Shown here: in pieces, positions 8,868 to 24,327 of the stretch
How the letters are laid out: every line of letters begins with the position of its first letter
Numbering within the stretch: position 1 is the stretch's first letter
NCBI GenBank assembly: GCA_014239335.1
Contig: JAAZZC010000142.1
Span: 1-40,403 of the forward strand
Direction of reading: 5' to 3'
From: Verrucomicrobiales bacterium
GTDB lineage: Bacteria; Verrucomicrobiota; Verrucomicrobiia; Verrucomicrobiales; DEV007
DNA: 40,403 nt
Program-made: the position numbers and the translations under genes
The notes under the pieces: generated by a model
The model's input: the letters and a program-made list of their open reading frames with translations, nothing else
Database searches by the model: none
What the model was told of the DNA's origin: nothing

Positions 8868-9689
8868 ATGTTGAGCAAAGAACAATCAAAACCCATAGCT
8901 CTCAGCATAGCAGGCTCAGATCCATCAGGAGGAGCTGGAATTCAAGCAGATATAAAAACATTCCATTCGTTGGGAGTGCATGCCTTAACAGCAGTCACAT
9001 GCATAACTTCACAAGTTCCAGGGAAAGTACTAAACATAGAACCAGTCAGCATTAAATCACTTAAATCTCAAATTGATATTTTATTTAGTGAGTACCCAAT
9101 ATCCGCAATTAAAACAGGCCTCCTATTTTCATCAGAATTAATCGAAGCGTTATTGTCATCCTTGGACGATAATAACTCAGAAGTACCTCTCATAGTTGAT
9201 CCCGTTATGGTTTCTTCTAGCGGAACACAATTGTTAAATCGTGACGCTTTAACACTTTACGTTGAAGAACTTATACCAAGATCAACGCTATATACACCTA
9301 ACTTATCTGAAGCTGCTACCCTTCTAGACATAAAACCCGAAGACATCGAAAATCCATCTGAATCCGCTCATCTATTATATAAAGAATATGGAACCCCAGT
9401 CTTACTTAAGGGGGGGCATTTTAGATCCACTAGCGCTACAGATTTTCTAGTTGATGAAACCGGAATTACAAGCTTTTCAAAGCCATTTTCAAAAAAAACA
9501 CCGGCGCATGGAACAGGCTGCACCTATTCAGCCTCTATTTGTGGCTGCATGGCAAAAGGCCTTAACCTTCATGACTCAATATTGAAATCAAAAGATTATG
9601 TCACTCAAACAATTACCCAGTCTTTTGAGCTTACGTCAGGTCACTTTTCATTAAATCACGATACCAGAAGCTATAATCCTACTCAGTGA
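8868..9689 (+). CDS. thiD: Hydroxymethylpyrimidine/phosphomethylpyrimidine kinase
   Basis: ALSIAGSDPSGGAGIQADIKTFHSLGVHALTAVTCITSQ, VDPVMVSSSG, HGTGCTYSASI. Confidence 0.95.
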   Translation: MLSKEQSKPIALSIAGSDPSGGAGIQADIKTFHSLGVHALTAVTCITSQVPGKVLNIEPVSIKSLKSQIDILFSEYPISAIKTGLLFSSELIEALLSSLDDNNSEVPLIVDPVMVSSSGTQLLNRDALTLYVEELIPRSTLYTPNLSEAATLLDIKPEDIENPSESAHLLYKEYGTPVLLKGGHFRSTSATDFLVDETGITSFSKPFSKKTPAHGTGCTYSASICGCMAKGLNLHDSILKSKDYVTQTITQSFELTSGHFSLNHDTRSYNPTQ

Positions 9690-9693
9690 GCTT

Positions 9694-11202
9694 CTATTTT
9701 TTCGGCAATAGTGTTATCTTCCTATCATTCGAAAGCTGTGGCCCTGGCGTAGTTCTGCCTCTCTCAACTTGAGATTCAAGTAATTGTACCATCGAAGAAA
9801 CCTTAGTGGGATGCATTCCTACTAAATTGTGTTTTTCCCTTGGATCATCTTTCAAGTTAAAGAGCTGCATGCTAGGAAACCCTTTCTTTTTTGCGTCAGA
9901 CTCTCTAGGAGCACTCCACCCACCGCTGCCTCTTGAAAGGCACAATTTCCAATCCCCTTCTCTTATAGCAAATGAACCATCTATTGAATGATTGATAATA
10001 GATTTACGATCATTTGATTTTGCCCCATTTAATAAACGAACAAGGCTAAACCCATCCTCTCCCCCTTTTGTTTTGTTTTTCTGTCCGGAAATCTCTTCTA
10101 GCGTTTTATAAATATCAGTTAAAGAAACGGTAGATTTATTCAATGTTCCCCCATCTATGCGACCGGGCCATCTCACGATCAATGGTACTCGGTGCCCTCC
10201 TTCATATATATCAGCTTTGTGCCCGCGGAATCCGCCACTCGGATCATGCCCTTTATCTTTCAATAATTTAAAATTAGCCTCAGGAGAACACCCGTTATCA
10301 CTAGTGAAAATGACCATAGTGTTTTCATCTAATCGTGTTTTACGAAGAGCCTTGAACAGTTCGCCCATGTGATAATCAATTTGCATAACAAAATCAGCAT
10401 AAGGGTTTAAACCGCTTGCTCCCTTGAATGGAGGCACTGGAACAATAGGAGTGTGAGGTGCTGGCAATGGCAAGTACAGAAAGAACCGTTGATCCTTTTT
10501 TGCTTCAGCTAAATGATTTTCTATATAATTAAATGACTTTTCAAACAGGTGAGGAAGAACCTCATTAATTTTAAAGTCAGCGCCTATTGGTCCTTTTCTG
10601 TACCAACCGTATCTGTCTTGAGATTTCGTTACTCCCTCATCCCTGTTTGGCTGCGCTGTTATCTTGCCTGTATCAACCCAAACATAAGGCGGCATGTCTA
10701 ATGAACCGCAATGGCCATAGTAGTAATCAAAACCATTTATATCAGGCCCATTCGTTACGGGTTGAGTAAAATCAATCTTATTATTCCGCTTTGCCCAATC
10801 CCAACCCAAGTGCCACTTGCCAATCATGGCAGTATTGTAACCTGCACCTTTCATAAGATGTCCCAACGTTGGGCGGTCTTTTGGTATTAAATGTTCACTT
10901 CTTCCGCTTAAAACTCCACGAGCTATTCTTGTTCTCCAACAGTAACGCCCCGTCAAAAGACCATACCGAGTTGGCGTGCAAACTGAACTTGGTGAATGAG
11001 CATCTAAGAAAGTCATTCCTTCGTTTGCCATCTTTTGCAAATGAGGAGTTTTTATTTTTGAATTAGGATTCGTTGGTGTTACGTCACCTATTCCAAGGTC
11101 ATCAGCCATAACTAAAATCACATTCGGCAATGCCCCAGGGAGAAGCTCAACCTGAGCAAGAGTGATTGCGATGAAAAAGGTCAACCTGAATCCACTATTC
11201 AT
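9694..11202 (-). CDS. Secreted type I sulfatase (arylsulfatase family)
   Basis: N-terminal signal-like segment, NVILVMADDLGIGD, formylglycine motif SVCTPTRYGLLTGRY (CxPxR), GKWHLG, VIFTSDNG. Confidence 0.95.
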   Translation of the reverse strand: MNSGFRLTFFIAITLAQVELLPGALPNVILVMADDLGIGDVTPTNPNSKIKTPHLQKMANEGMTFLDAHSPSSVCTPTRYGLLTGRYCWRTRIARGVLSGRSEHLIPKDRPTLGHLMKGAGYNTAMIGKWHLGWDWAKRNNKIDFTQPVTNGPDINGFDYYYGHCGSLDMPPYVWVDTGKITAQPNRDEGVTKSQDRYGWYRKGPIGADFKINEVLPHLFEKSFNYIENHLAEAKKDQRFFLYLPLPAPHTPIVPVPPFKGASGLNPYADFVMQIDYHMGELFKALRKTRLDENTMVIFTSDNGCSPEANFKLLKDKGHDPSGGFRGHKADIYEGGHRVPLIVRWPGRIDGGTLNKSTVSLTDIYKTLEEISGQKNKTKGGEDGFSLVRLLNGAKSNDRKSIINHSIDGSFAIREGDWKLCLSRGSGGWSAPRESDAKKKGFPSMQLFNLKDDPREKHNLVGMHPTKVSSMVQLLESQVERGRTTPGPQLSNDRKITLLPKK

Positions 11203-11276: not shown

Positions 11277-11345
11277 GGTTACCTTGCCCTGAAGCTGGTG
11301 CAGTCGGGAAATCGATGCACGTCCTAGTCAACTGGCCAAGGAACC
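11277..11345. ncRNA. Candidate structured RNA / leader element (transcribed strand unknown)
   Basis: GGTT-a-CCTTG (11277-11286) pairs with CAAGGAACC (11337-11345), 9 bp with one bulge; internal hairpin GTGCA-g-TCG ggaaat CGATGCAC (11298-11320), 8 bp; GC-rich island in an AT-rich spacer. Confidence 0.45.
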
Positions 11346-11491
11346 TACTAATTTCAATTATATTAGTATCGTGAAATCCAATCAATCCAATTATTGATTA
11401 ATAATCTAAATAATTAATAATTCTTCTTAATATTTAATATATTCTTGATATCAATCTACCTAATATTCCATCATCTCGATGGATCAATAAC

Positions 11492-11518
11492 TTGAGACTT
11501 TGTATGGCATACTATAAT
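11492..11518 (+). promoter_or_regulatory. Candidate promoter for the Gfo/Idh/MocA gene
   Basis: TATAAT at 11513-11518, 28 bp before the ATG; TTGAGA at 11492-11497 with a short 15-nt spacer. Confidence 0.35.
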
Positions 11519-11545
11519 TTAATTTGTTAAGTAATTATCAATCAC

Positions 11546-13018
11546 ATGAAACAACCTACCCGTAGAAAATTTATAAAGGGCTCGCTATATGGCGCAGCCG
11601 GAACAAGTACATTCTGCAGTCTTCCTGCAAAAGCCAAAGTAAAAGGTGCCAATACTGATGTGCGCGTTGCCGTAGTTGGAGTTGGAGGGCGTGGAGGCGG
11701 TCACGTTAATGCATGCATAGGTAACAAAAAAGTTAGGGTAACAGGTGTGTGTGATGCTGATTACAAACGTAATGAGGCTAACGCGAACCGCGTAAAGGAT
11801 AAGCAAGGATCAAAGCCCAAACAGTACGAAGATTATAGAGAATTGTGCACTGATAAAAACATTGATGCGGTTATGATTGCTACCCCAAATCATCTTCACT
11901 CGTTGGTTGCAATACTAGCTGCTCAAAATGGGAAACACGTATATGTAGAAAAGCCAGTTTCACATAATATATGGGAAGGCCGGAAGTTAGTCGAAGCCTC
12001 AATTAAATACGGTAAACAAGGAGTTATTGTTCAACACGGAATGCAACGCCGCTCAGATTCAGGATGGCGTGAAGTAATGGAGTGGATAAAAGACAAGCCA
12101 TTAGGAGAGATGATCGTAAGTAGAGGCTTTTGCTATAAACCAAGAAAGAGTATCGGCAAAGTACAAGAGCCCAAACAGCCACCAGCAGAAATCAATTACG
12201 ACTTATGGTCCGGGCCTAGACAAATTTTACCTATACGACGTGATCGATTCCATTATGATTGGCACTGGCAACGCCAATACGGCAACGGGGACATTGGAAA
12301 CCAAGGTCCTCACCAAATGGATGTAGCGAGATGGGCATTAGGTCAGGAAAAATGTGCTCCTAATGTATTAAGCATTGGCGGAAGGTTTGGTTATGACGAT
12401 GATGGCGACACTGCAAATACGCAAATCGCATTCTTTGACTACAAGCCAGTACCTTTAATTTTTGAAGTTCGTGGACTCCCTGAAAAAGGACTCGATTGGG
12501 GCAAGGGCATGTCCAATTACAAAGGGGCTAGAGTAGGAAATGTCATTGAGTTTGAAGGTGGTTACATAAGTGAATCCAAAGCATATGATAACAAAGGAAA
12601 GAGTATTAAGAAATTCGGAATAACAAATGGGCGAGGCCATTTTGAAAACTGGATTGCTTCCATTGAAGAAGGGATCAAGGAAGGCAATCATGAACATGAA
12701 CTTTCAGCTCACACTGGCCACATTTCCGCAGCATTAGGTCATATGGCGAATATCTCCTATTACATTGGCAAAAACTCCACACCTCAAGCCTGCAAAGAAT
12801 CCTTAAAAGGCGACAAAATGAAAGAAGAAGTATTCAACAGATTCGCTCAACACCTTGAAAATAACGGCATCAACATAGAAAAGACAAAAACAACTTTGGG
12901 GCCACTATTAAATTTTAACCCTGACAAAGAACAATTCACCGGAGACCTTTCTGAACAAGCCAATGAACTAGTAAAGGGAGATTACAGGAAAGGATTTAGA
13001 ATTCCCGAATCTGTTTAA
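11546..13018 (+). CDS. Gfo/Idh/MocA family oxidoreductase with Tat signal peptide
   Basis: TRRKFIKGS twin-arginine N-terminus; VRVAVVGVGGRGGGHV nucleotide-binding fold; AVMIATPNHLHS, KHVYVEKPVSHN. Confidence 0.94.
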   Translation: MKQPTRRKFIKGSLYGAAGTSTFCSLPAKAKVKGANTDVRVAVVGVGGRGGGHVNACIGNKKVRVTGVCDADYKRNEANANRVKDKQGSKPKQYEDYRELCTDKNIDAVMIATPNHLHSLVAILAAQNGKHVYVEKPVSHNIWEGRKLVEASIKYGKQGVIVQHGMQRRSDSGWREVMEWIKDKPLGEMIVSRGFCYKPRKSIGKVQEPKQPPAEINYDLWSGPRQILPIRRDRFHYDWHWQRQYGNGDIGNQGPHQMDVARWALGQEKCAPNVLSIGGRFGYDDDGDTANTQIAFFDYKPVPLIFEVRGLPEKGLDWGKGMSNYKGARVGNVIEFEGGYISESKAYDNKGKSIKKFGITNGRGHFENWIASIEEGIKEGNHEHELSAHTGHISAALGHMANISYYIGKNSTPQACKESLKGDKMKEEVFNRFAQHLENNGINIEKTKTTLGPLLNFNPDKEQFTGDLSEQANELVKGDYRKGFRIPESV

Positions 13019-16632: not shown

Positions 16633-19600
16633 CTATTCAGAACTACTGTCTAATCTTAAGCGTAAAAATGCTTTTTGAGAAGTTGACGGTAACCGAATTA
16701 CATTATTCCTCATTAATGATTCAACTTTGACTGTATCAATAGGCAACTCATTCCATTGCTTCAAGTCATCAGAATACTCGAAAACAACCCTGTAATCGCT
16801 TACAGCCAATCTCGTTGCAACTTCCCAAATCATTTCATTACTCAGAATATCAAATCGCGGCAAATTTATTTGATTAAACCTTTTAACTCCACCTCCAAGA
16901 ACATATTGCAAAGCGTTAATTAATCCGTCCCCGTCATCGTCTACATATGGAGGCCCAACTTTATTCTCATCAGACCACATTTCATAAGTCTCTTCTAAAA
17001 TTATCCCATGCGGACTCCCAAGATAGCTGCTAATTACCCAAGATGCCCTAGAATTATAAAGGGGAGGATCAATTGTTAAATCTTTCAGTTCTAATGAATA
17101 CCCCTCACCATCGGCTTGGCTGTACCATTCATCATTAAATGAAAACCTAACCATATTAAATGGATAAGGCTCTGGTAACTGAAGAATCAATTCCTCGCCT
17201 CCATTATTTAATCTCCCTGCATACTCAACAATTAAATGGTTTATCTCACCATATCTAGAAGTGAACGCGTTTAAATTAGACGCAAGAACTACTGACTCCT
17301 TTGGTGAAAGAAACATTTCACCAAAGGTATATTCAATGCCTTTTACAAAACTAATTCCATTTAGATTTAATGTTTTTTCCCCAACATTCTGTAACTCAAT
17401 GTACTCGTACTCAGACCCGCCAAGAGGGTTGTACATGATTTCTATTATCCTAAGGGAGTTATAAATTTCCAACAGCCTCTCATATTCTACATACTCATCT
17501 GAACCTTGTACCGGCTGCATAACCCCCGGTGTAGGCACTATAAATTTCTGATAGGAATCACTTCCTGCGATCTTTCCTTCTGATAATCCTTCAATCTGTG
17601 GACCATATATAACATTATCTAGAAGTGACCCATCTCTATCCGTGAGCACAATTTGATCCAAGTCAGTAGCCAACTTAAAGCCCTTAGGTTCAACAGTTAC
17701 ATAATTATTTGGAGCAATAAAACTTAATTCAGGTAGCAACATCGAATTTTCACCATAAGTGAGAGAATCAGAAAGACTTACTCCTGTTAGCTCGACGGGA
17801 AATGATGAATTGTTCACCAATTCAATGAATTCACTCCGATCCAATTGCCCTGGATTAGCAAGCCATTCACTTATCCTAAGACCAGAAGGATCACCAATCC
17901 TCACTTCTCTATTCTCTGCCCCAGGAGTTGGGACATTTAGCATCCACAAAGAATTCCTTCCATATCTACCAATGGAGTAATTGACTGCCTGAAAACCATA
18001 ATCGATCGAATCTAATATCTTACCTGAATCAAATAAATAGATAGACCCTCCTCCCTTTTTTATTTCCATAGAATCGTTAGAAGGATTAATTTCAATGACT
18101 AAGTAACCCCACGCTTCAATTTCAGAAATTTGGTCAAGATCTATTCGTGAATCACCCTCGATAGATGAACTGACATAATAACCATTCAAGCTAATAGGTT
18201 TAGGGCTCGAATTGTATAGTTCAACATATGAAGGATTACCTCCATCAGATTCATATACTCCTTCATTTGAAATTAACACCTCATTTAGAACAAGCCTGTC
18301 GGGATAAGATTCGACGATCTCCCATTGTTCTGATTGTGTTGGCATCTCTTGCCAATTCCCTGCGAAATCTTGTCCCAAAACTTCAATCGAATAAACACCC
18401 GGCAAAAGATCTTTTAATAATATCCTCCCACTACGAACAGTCACGCCCACTAGTGGATTAAAACCATCACCTATTTCAATCACCTCACTCCATTCTGTAT
18501 CTTTAAATCTCCAACGATAAGAAAAGTATCCCGGCCCCCCAACCATCAATGCCGCTTCTTGATCGGTTGTAATTGAAGGCGGCTCTCCAGATATAAATAT
18601 CCCAGAACGAACCAAGGCCCCGAGATCTTGACCAAATTTTCCTGCACCTCTTGCAGGGGACGCAGGATGCAACTTGAAGTCTTGGGACTCAGGATCAGCA
18701 AATAGCGGGAAATCAATTGTGTTATTCTTCCCCAGATCCAAAATGCTCAAGCCTTCATGGTTCCTTCCTATAGTTAAATCTGATAATTGCGGATCTAAGA
18801 GATTTTGGACTAGTTCCAATGGAGTTACAGGATACGGCGGTTCTTTAGCATCATCAGCGCCACTAAAGACTCTCGGAGTGACTAGAATATTATCAGTGAG
18901 ATACGCTCCTTTTCCGTGAGTGGCTCGAGAATCAGTATCTGTGGGTATGAAAAGATTTACAACAGACGCAACGCTCGGATTATCAAATCTATCATTAAAA
19001 TCGGGATGGATTTTATAGACTGTATTATTCTCAAAAATAGCAGCACTCTGAATTTTTAAGCTGATTGCATGATCAACATCAGAAAAAACATTTCTCGATA
19101 TAGAGAATGTAGCCCCAGGACCAACATCACCTGTAGAGATTGCATTGGCATAACCTCTATCAGAGGTTTCATCATCTTTGAACACGTTAAGAAATACATT
19201 TTCTGACAAATAAACATCTCCTCCAAGGTCACAAAGTTCATCACCTGCCCCTGCAAAATAGTTGCCTATAATTTGAACTATTGGACCAGGTCTCCACCCA
19301 CTATCAACATCGATCACATCGTTATGACCCTTATTCCTTCCAAAATAGTTATCTCTTATAATGTACCTACCGCCTTCAGGAATTTCTCCTATCCCTTTTA
19401 TATGTTCACTAATATTATCAAGACCAAGCTCTGCGGGCTTCTCCTCATCAGTAAACATATCAGGAAACTTTGTATTCCTTATAATAACTGAAGCATCCTC
19501 CGTATAAATCATTCGTATGTGAGTTCTGCTAAAAGAAACATCATCTATTACACATTGTGATTTTATCACACCAATAGCACCCTCATCATCTTGGGCGCTC

Positions 19601-22600
19601 TCAAAATCGGTACAGATTATTATATTTTCTAGATCTAATGTGTTAATCAATTTCAATCCTCTCCATTTTGGAGGTCCGTCAGGCAATTCTCCATCTCCTG
19701 CCTCGTCCTCCACAAATGGAGCTCCAGGAAAATGAGAAAATTGAATCCTGCGTTCTGGATCACCCACAATTGAAGCCTTACCTTCAATCTCAATCTTTAC
19801 ACCTTCGGCAACATAAACAGATACCCCTGCTTCCAAATAAAAGTCAACTCCGTCTGGCACCTTCACATCGTCCGTAACGTAGTACGGAGATCCATCTAAT
19901 TCCCAACGCACTTCACCTCCAATTACAACGAAGTCATAAAACCCCACATCCTTTTCCTTTTGCTCATCTGAATCTTCTACTATTGCTGGCGAGTCTTCTG
20001 AAAGCCTGAAGTCACCAGTTTCTGAATTCCTAAAAAGAGGGTCCAAACTTTGATTCCCTTCCCACCCTCCTTCAACTATGGAACCCTTAACTGCTATATC
20101 TTCCTCACTATAATCAGTCCGAACAGACAATCCATTACCCCATAAAATACTATTATTAACCACATACCGACTAGGCTCATCATTGCCGTCCTTATTCTCG
20201 ACCTGTAACCCAACTCCATCATTCCCAGAGACTGTTACACTATTAAGAATGACATCAGCATCATCCTTAGCCGAAATTCCAATAGCATTATTGACCAAAA
20301 GCCCACCATTTAATTGAAGAGATCCGCCAAATACACTAATTCCTTTATCCGAACAGTTTCTACATATAACACCTTCAACCAGAACGTCAGCTCCAAGAGT
20401 ATCTATCCCATCATCATCCATATACGCCACTGTAAGATTCTTAAGAATCAACTCCTGACCTGGCCTTGTTTCATGAAGATATATAGCATCATTGTCGTCA
20501 GTAACATTATCTTCTCTATAGACACCAAGCATATCGGTTATGTAAGAATCCTCCAAGAGAACCCCCGTATCAAAAGTCTCAAAACCCATCACTGACCTGG
20601 CCCAATGACACCTACGGAAAACCAAACTAGAACCTATTCCATTTTGTGCATTTGCCTGACCAATCTTTCCTCTATTATCTGATATCGTACAATCTTCAAA
20701 AACTACACTTGACCCAAGAACTCTCAAAACCCTGCCATGATCTGTATGCCCACCTTTTGGAGAATGACCACCACGGTGAATGTTTGTGAATTTAAAAATG
20801 GCACCTTCTGATTCATCAAATAATATCTGCCCCCACACTTCACCAGCAGAGGGAGAAGTGAACGTTATAGGCTCTTCACTATTACCAACGCAATTAATAG
20901 TACCTGCGATTATTAAGTCTGAACCAGCGGAACTCTGAGGCTCCTCATCCCCACTTAACAAAATAATGGTGCCAGGTAGAATATTGAGAACATGACCTTT
21001 AGGAACGGTCACATCACCTATAACACGAACGACCCCAGACCAATTAGTTACAGTATCCTCTAAAGCCCCTGAAACTTCGGTAAAATCTGGAGATGGCCCT
21101 AAACTAATGATGCTTTTAGAAACGCTCTGCTGCCCCATTTCAACATTTAAATTTAAATTTCCAGGATCTGTAGAGGGGCCAGAAATAAGAGCACTTAGCT
21201 GAAGATCAAAACTGATGTCAGAACTTCGATCATCGCCTTGCTTTATTTCTACAGCAATAACGTTTTTCCCTGCAACTAGTAGGTCTGCTGACAATTGAGA
21301 GAATTCCTGAAAGTTCTCAGTGGGAGCATCATCGCCATCAACTGTAAACTCATCAAAAGTCATTCCTGACTCCATGTTAGAGGTCTTAAAGAATTCCTTG
21401 CCGTTAATATATATTATAGCCCCATCGTCATACTTTAATCGCATTTCCAATGTAGAAATGTTTTCAATGTCATTCACATTAAATTCAGATCGAAAATATG
21501 TTGTAGCGTATTTATTTCTTGAGTTTGGCCCAAAGCTCACCTCTGTGACTTCATCATCATCACCATACCCCAATTCAGCCCTGCCTCTTTGCCATCCCGA
21601 ATCATCAAAATTCACAGCCTGCCAAAGGACGCCCTGATCAGATCCATTATCGAGGTAGCTCCATACTGAACCCTCTGAAAGGAGAACTACTTCCTCTTCT
21701 AATCCACCACCCTGCACAGTCACTAATGCACTTCCCAAGCCATTTCTAAGATTAACAACATTAGGACTTATTCTGACTCCAGCCCTATTTGCAGTCAGAG
21801 TCACTGAAGTGTCCCAAACATCTCTTAAATAAGAACCATTAGAGCCCCTTACATCTACACGCACAAGGAATGGAACCTTAGGAATATATGAGTCTCGAGT
21901 CGTTAAGAATAAGTTACCGCTAATATTAGTACCTGTAAGGTCTCCTGAAACCTCTGTGACTTTTCCTGTATCATTCCATAATTTTATATACTCTTCATGC
22001 AACATCTGACCATCAGCCCCTTCATAAAAAGCGACTCTAACCCTATTTAACCCTGGCATTAAAGCACCTCCATTTGAAAATGAACGGAGCGTTAAATTCC
22101 ACACCCCTTCACGAGGATTAAGATTTGCATCTATCCCATTAACTTTTACGGATTTAACCTTTCCAACATGAAAATCTCCACTGAACCTAGCATCTCCATT
22201 AACTGTGCGGTAATACCCATCACTTGATTCGGGCAAATCCACCTCTACTGAATAATTAGTCTGTATTTGCGCCAAGACTCCACGCCTACGATCAACAACA
22301 AACTCCTTCATCTCATCTAAAACATCGGAAGGAAAAAACGCGCCTACTGCCCTATCAATGATTGGATTGATAAGCTCTGGCCTAAATTTGCTCTCAATTA
22401 TCTGAATAAATTTGGCGTAATAACGGGGGATGATATCAGGATGAGACAAAAACTCACTCAACCCATCAACGCCTGTATATGTGAAAATTGACAAGTTAGG
22501 ACTCCCTGATCTCGTTCCCTGATCTAATACCGTATCTAAATCATGGGGAACTAACTGAAACCGTTGATCGTTCTCGCCTCTGTACAAAGCATAATCATCG

Positions 22601-24327
22601 CCTTTACCTGTAGTAAGACCTCCCTCCCTATTTCCTATCAGTGAATCCACAGCTAAGAAATGCAACCACTGATCAATATCTATAACTTCAGACAATCTCT
22701 CAATGTAATCAGGCTCTTCATCACTGTTTAACGTTTTCGTCAGATTAATAATATCAGACCAATCATCTACTGATTTATTTGTCTTCTTGAAATAAGTATT
22801 ACGATAAGAGTCAGACTGTTCCCCTTCATATTTAAGGTCACCCTCATCTCCATTATCCTCATCATCTCTCACTTGGTATATGTTCCCATCAGAATCTTCA
22901 GGCCAGTGAGCATCAACGAAATTTGAATCGAGGGACTCCGTTCTAGCATAGTAACCGAACATCCGTGGCCCACCGGACTCCGCAAGGTCTTCTCCATTAA
23001 TGTGAAGCTTAACAGGAATACTGTCAGCTGCCTTAACCCCCAACCATTGATAAAGCCAACTTCCAACGACTTGAGAATGAGTGTACTGACAATTAAATTT
23101 TATTGATTCCTGTCCGTTCCAAGAATCATCTGATCTAAATTTAATTAAATGATTGTTTGGAGGGCCATTCCGGCTACTCGCTCCTCGGTTGCGAATCGAA
23201 GACAAGTACCTCACTCTCTCCCCTTTTCCGTCAAAACTAATGAAAGTACAATTCATTTCAGCATTGCTATCAGATTGGCTGGATCGACGCCCAATCTCTT
23301 CAAGCTCACCTCGTTCAGCGTCAGTCATGATCACATAATAACTAGGCACGGAATCGTTATGCTCGTAATCATCATCCACCATATACAAATAATTACACAC
23401 ATTACCCTTCCCAAGTATTCGAAGTGGCCACTGTCTAGATTCATTTTCGCCAACTCCAAGAACAAAGAAAAACTCAACAACCGATTTGTCCTGCTGCTCT
23501 GGAATTTCAGCAAAATAAGCGCCCTCCTCATTAACTTTCATATCCATTGAAGCAAAATCATCAGCGGCACCGTCGACCTTCCAAAACAGTTCAAGCCCGA
23601 GATCGTCAAACCTTGAAGAATTATCAATTTTAATAGTTACTCGAACAGGATCCGTTGATTTTGGCAGTACCGGAAAATGGCTGATACTTTCTATTAATGG
23701 AACTAGTTTTGGATCATAAACTGAATTTTGTTGACCAGGGGTTCCTCCTTCTAAAATAGAAGAACTCCAATTTTGACCATTATTATTTTTGTCAGCCCAG
23801 TTGACCAACTCTAAAGACCTTCCTCCACCATCATGCAAAGCCTCCCAAACCCAACCTTCATGCCCACGATCATCGGGTCCGGTTTTTCTTGAAGCCCAAA
23901 AACCCTCATCAGCATAATCAACTTGATCTATTTCTTTATTAGAACCGTCTCTTATTCGTATTCTCTCTCCAGTATTTGATAATTTTCCGACCCAAGGGCC
24001 CAATGCTTCTGGGGCATCAGGATAAAATGACGCAAACCTTTCTGGATCCGCAGCAACAACCACAAAAGATTCAGGATCAATAACATAATTGGGAAATTCA
24101 TAATTTACACCAGCACTTATACGCCAACCCTGAAGAGCAATTTCTTGCGGGCCCGAATTATATATCTCAATCCACTCCTTGCTGAAATCCTCAACCCCGT
24201 CTTCATCCTTTATGGAATAATTAATTTCATTGATAATCAATTTTGCTTCCACTTTAGACGATGCCAAATTGATTATCGCGCAACACCACAGCAAAGGGAT
24301 CAGGGTTATAGAAGGGTCAATCTTCAT
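16633..24327 (-). CDS. Giant secreted protein: lamin-tail domain, CotH-like kinase domain, right-handed beta-helix region, further lamin-tail domains
   Basis: 2564 aa; signal-like N-terminus; LTD-type KLIINEINYS...EWIEIYNSG; CotH-like SIRNRGASSRNGPPNNHLIKFRSDDSWNG..MFGYYARTESLDSNFVDAH..HDLDTVLD; repeated 'V..NSILWGNG', 'DNIL', 'SRNVF' beta-helix rungs; three C-terminal LTD repeats (LNEVLISNEG.., LRISEWLANPG.., LRIIEIMYNPLGG..); terminal DDDGDGLINALQYVLGG. Confidence 0.88.
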   Translation of the reverse strand: MKIDPSITLIPLLWCCAIINLASSKVEAKLIINEINYSIKDEDGVEDFSKEWIEIYNSGPQEIALQGWRISAGVNYEFPNYVIDPESFVVVAADPERFASFYPDAPEALGPWVGKLSNTGERIRIRDGSNKEIDQVDYADEGFWASRKTGPDDRGHEGWVWEALHDGGGRSLELVNWADKNNNGQNWSSSILEGGTPGQQNSVYDPKLVPLIESISHFPVLPKSTDPVRVTIKIDNSSRFDDLGLELFWKVDGAADDFASMDMKVNEEGAYFAEIPEQQDKSVVEFFFVLGVGENESRQWPLRILGKGNVCNYLYMVDDDYEHNDSVPSYYVIMTDAERGELEEIGRRSSQSDSNAEMNCTFISFDGKGERVRYLSSIRNRGASSRNGPPNNHLIKFRSDDSWNGQESIKFNCQYTHSQVVGSWLYQWLGVKAADSIPVKLHINGEDLAESGGPRMFGYYARTESLDSNFVDAHWPEDSDGNIYQVRDDEDNGDEGDLKYEGEQSDSYRNTYFKKTNKSVDDWSDIINLTKTLNSDEEPDYIERLSEVIDIDQWLHFLAVDSLIGNREGGLTTGKGDDYALYRGENDQRFQLVPHDLDTVLDQGTRSGSPNLSIFTYTGVDGLSEFLSHPDIIPRYYAKFIQIIESKFRPELINPIIDRAVGAFFPSDVLDEMKEFVVDRRRGVLAQIQTNYSVEVDLPESSDGYYRTVNGDARFSGDFHVGKVKSVKVNGIDANLNPREGVWNLTLRSFSNGGALMPGLNRVRVAFYEGADGQMLHEEYIKLWNDTGKVTEVSGDLTGTNISGNLFLTTRDSYIPKVPFLVRVDVRGSNGSYLRDVWDTSVTLTANRAGVRISPNVVNLRNGLGSALVTVQGGGLEEEVVLLSEGSVWSYLDNGSDQGVLWQAVNFDDSGWQRGRAELGYGDDDEVTEVSFGPNSRNKYATTYFRSEFNVNDIENISTLEMRLKYDDGAIIYINGKEFFKTSNMESGMTFDEFTVDGDDAPTENFQEFSQLSADLLVAGKNVIAVEIKQGDDRSSDISFDLQLSALISGPSTDPGNLNLNVEMGQQSVSKSIISLGPSPDFTEVSGALEDTVTNWSGVVRVIGDVTVPKGHVLNILPGTIILLSGDEEPQSSAGSDLIIAGTINCVGNSEEPITFTSPSAGEVWGQILFDESEGAIFKFTNIHRGGHSPKGGHTDHGRVLRVLGSSVVFEDCTISDNRGKIGQANAQNGIGSSLVFRRCHWARSVMGFETFDTGVLLEDSYITDMLGVYREDNVTDDNDAIYLHETRPGQELILKNLTVAYMDDDGIDTLGADVLVEGVICRNCSDKGISVFGGSLQLNGGLLVNNAIGISAKDDADVILNSVTVSGNDGVGLQVENKDGNDEPSRYVVNNSILWGNGLSVRTDYSEEDIAVKGSIVEGGWEGNQSLDPLFRNSETGDFRLSEDSPAIVEDSDEQKEKDVGFYDFVVIGGEVRWELDGSPYYVTDDVKVPDGVDFYLEAGVSVYVAEGVKIEIEGKASIVGDPERRIQFSHFPGAPFVEDEAGDGELPDGPPKWRGLKLINTLDLENIIICTDFESAQDDEGAIGVIKSQCVIDDVSFSRTHIRMIYTEDASVIIRNTKFPDMFTDEEKPAELGLDNISEHIKGIGEIPEGGRYIIRDNYFGRNKGHNDVIDVDSGWRPGPIVQIIGNYFAGAGDELCDLGGDVYLSENVFLNVFKDDETSDRGYANAISTGDVGPGATFSISRNVFSDVDHAISLKIQSAAIFENNTVYKIHPDFNDRFDNPSVASVVNLFIPTDTDSRATHGKGAYLTDNILVTPRVFSGADDAKEPPYPVTPLELVQNLLDPQLSDLTIGRNHEGLSILDLGKNNTIDFPLFADPESQDFKLHPASPARGAGKFGQDLGALVRSGIFISGEPPSITTDQEAALMVGGPGYFSYRWRFKDTEWSEVIEIGDGFNPLVGVTVRSGRILLKDLLPGVYSIEVLGQDFAGNWQEMPTQSEQWEIVESYPDRLVLNEVLISNEGVYESDGGNPSYVELYNSSPKPISLNGYYVSSSIEGDSRIDLDQISEIEAWGYLVIEINPSNDSMEIKKGGGSIYLFDSGKILDSIDYGFQAVNYSIGRYGRNSLWMLNVPTPGAENREVRIGDPSGLRISEWLANPGQLDRSEFIELVNNSSFPVELTGVSLSDSLTYGENSMLLPELSFIAPNNYVTVEPKGFKLATDLDQIVLTDRDGSLLDNVIYGPQIEGLSEGKIAGSDSYQKFIVPTPGVMQPVQGSDEYVEYERLLEIYNSLRIIEIMYNPLGGSEYEYIELQNVGEKTLNLNGISFVKGIEYTFGEMFLSPKESVVLASNLNAFTSRYGEINHLIVEYAGRLNNGGEELILQLPEPYPFNMVRFSFNDEWYSQADGEGYSLELKDLTIDPPLYNSRASWVISSYLGSPHGIILEETYEMWSDENKVGPPYVDDDGDGLINALQYVLGGGVKRFNQINLPRFDILSNEMIWEVATRLAVSDYRVVFEYSDDLKQWNELPIDTVKVESLMRNNVIRLPSTSQKAFLRLRLDSSSE

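Follow-up and report, generated by a model that had tools for sequence, protein, structure and literature searches.

The closest described counterparts of the element reported here are the orphan small-RNA genes that bacteria carry in divergent promoter regions. It shares with them a short GC peak in an AT-rich spacer, promoter-like boxes, a hairpin with a conserved bulge, presence in a single copy and a lineage-restricted distribution, and differs from them in that no terminator was found, that it has no Rfam family and that Hfq was not found in its genus. With the aptamers of riboswitches and other cis-acting leaders, the element likewise shares unpaired nucleotides that are conserved within an imperfect hairpin; it differs in lacking a constant downstream gene on the RNA strand (on the minus strand, no co-oriented gene lies constantly downstream) and a match in Rfam, and no expression platform was seen. 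Like the small SRP RNA (RF00169), it is a single imperfect hairpin of <100 nt, but a separate SRP RNA scoring above the cut-off exists elsewhere in nine of the ten genus genomes. Its unpaired ACUAGGA resembles the GGA site of CsrA-binding sponge RNAs (CsrB/RsmZ type), but the bulge holds a single GGA, which is lost in one genome (G008), and neither CsrA nor Hfq homologs were found in the ten genus genomes (MAGs, 53-94% complete; the absence is uniform). Because Hfq was found in none of the ten, an Hfq-dependent sRNA was rejected and a pairing mode that depends on Hfq is unlikely. An integron attC-like or repeated mobile site was rejected on the single copy of the element, whose ends, by eye, do not fit the RYYYAAC...GTTRRRY cores. 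No tRNA or tmRNA was detected by ARAGORN. In Rfam, the window gave no matches at the gathering threshold, and the best weak matches at a permissive threshold were at chance level; the initial annotation had recognized neither a tRNA nor a standard riboswitch. Our literature searches found no description of the element and no small-RNA catalogue for marine Verrucomicrobiota.

The element lies in a window of 40,403 nt (the whole stretch of DNA analysed here) from a marine Verrucomicrobiales bacterium, and its features are listed in Table 1. With a probability of roughly 0.6, we take it to be a stand-alone, genus-restricted gene for a small structured noncoding RNA, located on the minus strand and equipped with its own putative sigma-70-type promoter. 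The GC-rich segment with nested pairing that had been noticed in the AT-rich spacer was confirmed in both sequence and pairings: in the outer helix, GGTT(a)CCTTG (11277-11286) pairs with CAAGGAACC (11337-11345), and in the inner hairpin, GTGCA(g)TCG (11298-11306) pairs with CGATGCAC (11313-11320). The G+C content is 0.54-0.58 in the element, against 0.10-0.34 in most of the spacer windows around it. Compared with dinucleotide shuffles, the fold of the plus strand has a z-score of -3.2 (1 of 200 shuffles as good) and that of the minus strand a z-score of -3.1 (2 of 200). A second hairpin that had been described as abutting the first, TACTAAT-N9-ATTAGTA, is present but does not belong to the element; because it is only one of several 7-nt inverted repeats carried by the AT-rich spacer, is unconserved and overlaps the minus-strand -10 box, it was dropped, and we judge it to be a chance palindrome.

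Table 1. Features of the locus, with positions in the window
Feature	Position	Strand	Description
Candidate small RNA core	11277..11345	-	69 nt, GGUUCCUUGGCCAGUUGACUAGGACGUGCAUCGAUUUCCCGACUGCACCAGCUUCAGGGCAAGGUAACC; based on eight same-genus genomes, compensatory changes and the minus-strand G·U bias
Helix H1, 5' strand	11337..11341	-	Pairs with 11282-11286; pairing in 8/8 sequences
Helix H1, 3' strand	11282..11286	-	Pairs with 11337-11341
H1b and H2, 5' strands (CC+AGUUG)	11329..11335	-	Pair with 11288-11289 and 11293-11297; RNAalifold consensus
Unpaired bulge	11321..11328	-	ACUAGGAC; ACUWGGAY in 7/8, near-invariant, on the 5' side only
Apical hairpin H3	11298..11320	-	11316-11320 pairs with 11298-11302; variable loop
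Second hairpin	11346..11368		Unconserved in relatives; 7-nt inverted repeats nearby
Putative sigma-70-type RNA promoter	11357..11385	-	TTGATT (11385-11380), N17, TATAAT (11362-11357)
Putative separate Gfo/Idh promoter	11492..11520	+	TTGAGA, N17, TAATTT
Gfo/Idh/MocA oxidoreductase	11546..13018	+	Pfam PF01408; constant neighbour; orthologs 84-96% identical in the genus
thiD (HMP/HMP-P kinase)	8868..9689	+	TIGR00097 above cut-off; the other constant flank
Sulfatase	9694..11202	-	PF00884; lies between thiD and the element, variably present

Searched for at the DNA level in 96 genomes (that of the window, G000, plus 95 of its relatives), the element gave clear matches in three genomes of the same genus and partial matches in others. 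With the Gfo/Idh and thiD orthologs as anchors, the element was located upstream of Gfo/Idh in all eight same-genus genomes that have a complete spacer; not counted are G006, whose contig stops just before the element, and G004, whose assembly lacks the Gfo/Idh ortholog. Within the genus, a covariance model recognized exactly one copy per genome, and it recognized none in 65 genomes of the family and 377 genomes of the order sample, all outside the genus. Nothing convincing was found in a class sample of 384 genomes; a weak match in G562 falls within an open frame and is no better than chance would give in that number of genomes. Gfo/Idh orthologs in the sister genera (G025, G039 and others) are not accompanied by the element, and the viral contigs searched contain none. 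A scan of 84,980 genomes for the exact motif returned six same-genus contigs (Verrucomicrobiales or Verrucomicrobia MAGs) and three others, from SAR202, Jannaschia and Limisphaerales, which were set aside as chance matches, the rest of the element and a covariance-model match being absent from them. Within clades, the identity of the element is 0.81-0.84, against 0.52-0.57 in both flanks. Judged from these comparisons, the element is restricted to the genus and conserved in sequence, position and structure.

From alignments of the eight elements for each strand, the putative minus-strand RNA was modelled as one imperfect hairpin, consisting of H1 with a small internal loop, H2, a bulge and the apical H3. 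H1 is CCUUG/CAAGG, the last pair of which exchanges G-C, A-U and G-U, and is continued by the two pairs of H1b; H2 is AGUUG/CAGCU, with 95% of its cells paired. The stem of H3 occurs as GUGCA/UGCAC, ACACA/UGUGU, ACGCA/UGCGU and mixtures of these, with double changes at three pairs, and its loop differs in length by 5 nt; compensation thus maintains the stem, whereas the loop is variable. The compensatory changes are located in H1 and H3. In the minus-strand structure, 92% of the cells are paired and 14 are double-changed, and none of 500 shuffles was as high for paired cells, double-changed cells or covariation score, although the number of pairs changed on both sides was not unusual (99 of 500 shuffles); these figures come from eight sequences only, with about five or six independent events. 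The proposal of a structured RNA is supported by homologs that occupy one and the same site in the eight genomes and show compensatory changes at paired positions. Because the bulge and the internal loop are near-invariant and unpaired in the consensus, they suggest a binding site, for which the bulge at 11321-11328 seems the likeliest place.

The putative minus-strand promoter matches the consensus at 10 of 12 positions and predicts a start near 11350; in the window, its boxes end 11 nt before the element (10-12 nt across the genomes). Equivalent boxes exist at the matching position in G001, G002, G003, G005, G007 and G009, that is, in seven of the eight genomes together with G000, and by eye G006 also retains them up to its contig end. 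Individually such boxes are weak in AT-rich DNA, and only those of G000 stand out alone, but the summed score of 65 (shuffled mean, 54.7) was reached by none of 300 shuffles in a test at fixed distance, and exceeded 99.3% of shuffles in a looser test. G008 is the only genome in which a deletion took the -35 region, and its element shows three deviations at otherwise invariant columns, against two or fewer in each of the other genomes. On the minus strand after the element, no recognizable terminator was seen. On the other side, CTTGAGA lies between the element and the Gfo/Idh start codon in all nine genomes with the gene (8-10 of 12 matches), followed after about 17 nt by a -10-like hexamer in all nine. 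The picture drawn from these motifs is of a pair of promoters that diverge within the AT-rich spacer. Between them, a block TTTAAT...CTTTGATAT (TTTAATATATTCTTGATATCAAT in the window, at 11432-11456) is kept in nine of nine genomes, and may be where a regulator of either gene binds. The spacer of G005 (L031), and of that genome only, has about 125 nt extra between the TTTGATAT block and the Gfo/Idh promoter.

Since H1, H1b and H3 form identically whichever strand is read, departures from Watson-Crick pairing in them can tell which strand is the RNA. Read on the minus strand, all seven such cells in these core helices are G·U; read on the plus strand, they are A·C, and none is the reverse. Counted once for related genomes, they amount to about six events, with a two-sided chance of about 1 in 32, so that this bias alone is suggestive of the minus strand and not conclusive. 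RNAalifold gave -16.25 kcal/mol for the minus strand (covariation, -2.31) against -12.96 kcal/mol for the plus strand (covariation, -0.48), whereas the mean z-scores of single-sequence folds (-2.25 against -2.13) do not separate the strands. Given this uniform G·U bias, the putative RNA most likely belongs to the minus strand. A plus-strand element, acting as a stabilizer or terminator in the 3' untranslated region of thiD or as a leader of the Gfo/Idh mRNA, is accordingly on the unfavoured side of the G·U bias. It would accord with the position of the element about 0-20 nt after the thiD stop codon in G001, G002, G003 and G009, with Gfo/Idh as its constant plus-strand neighbour, and with a plus strand that also folds well. 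However, the plus-strand fold of G003 is poor (z = +0.6), no promoter signal was seen on the plus side before the element, and thiD, 1.6 kb away in the window, runs up against a convergent gene. The oxidoreductase leader that the initial annotation had offered for the plus strand is also disfavoured by the conserved Gfo/Idh promoter, which lies between the element and the start codon; in either form, we regard a plus-strand function as unlikely.

Wherever thiD and the locus were both found, thiD lies ahead of it, and in the four genomes in which the element almost directly follows thiD there is no room for a sulfatase gene. In G005 and G008, thiD and the element are 1.6 kb apart as in G000, and the sequence upstream of the element matches. 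In G007, a spacer of 260 nt (L011:1248-1512) holds a decayed sulfatase fragment, which resembles window positions 9890-10015 (tblastx E-value = 2e-6) and contains stops, while the element and its promoter are intact; as read from these sequences, the sulfatase was lost in the G007 lineage while the element stayed. Elsewhere in the window, at 16633-24327 on the minus strand, a protein of 2564 amino acids with four lamin-tail domains, a CotH kinase domain and a beta-helix region is encoded.

The arrangement in G000, where about 75 nt separate the element from the start of the co-oriented sulfatase gene downstream and no further promoter was found in that gap, together with the shared spacing in G005 and G008, would suit a minus-strand 5' leader of the sulfatase (a riboswitch-like element or attenuator), the copies without the gene being leftovers. 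However, the element and its promoter are equally conserved where the sulfatase is missing (G001, G002, G003 and G009) or decayed (G007), the element is more constrained than its flanks in sulfatase-less genomes too, and no arrangement of terminator and anti-terminator is visible. Because five of the eight genomes that kept the element have either no sulfatase at the site or a decayed one, the element is not simply a sulfatase leader, and such an explanation is rather improbable. The minus-strand leader suggested earlier therefore fails as a general function, with no gene in four genomes and a decayed one in a fifth, but stands as a possibility for the carriers, in which the putative RNA may also be the 5' leader of the sulfatase.

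In the stand-alone RNA gene that we favour, a promoter in the AT-rich spacer, diverging from that of Gfo/Idh, would drive transcription, from the minus strand, of an RNA that is about 70-80 nt long or longer. Such an RNA would encode nothing and would act in trans through the ACUAGGAY bulge and the UUCAGG internal loop, which may be bound by a protein or by a second RNA. It is probably a small regulatory RNA that is new but ordinary in other respects, without a known family. That the bulge and the internal loop facing it instead mark a small RNA of a new class, which would sense a ligand or protein in a defined pocket and regulate genes nearby or elsewhere, we consider doubtful. An element acting as DNA (an operator, a recombination site or a hairpin-forming site) is very unlikely: inverted repeats between divergent promoters could be the target of a regulator, but departures that are G·U on one strand only, and a change in loop length, are unexpected for a double-stranded site, and the element is a single copy with no repeats elsewhere in the genome. 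Many short palindromes occur in AT-rich spacers, but a chance fold, or a remnant of a mobile element or of the decayed coding sequence considered earlier, is scarcely credible for an element that eight genomes retain, compensatory changes included, without a tRNA, Rfam match or multi-copy repeats, and with a 5-nt length difference between clades that breaks any conserved reading frame.

The practical value of the finding is moderate, the element being a genus-restricted candidate orphan RNA of a kind already known. Conserved, present once per genome, and with its probable strand and start predicted, this structured RNA candidate offers a concrete entry point for the genus.
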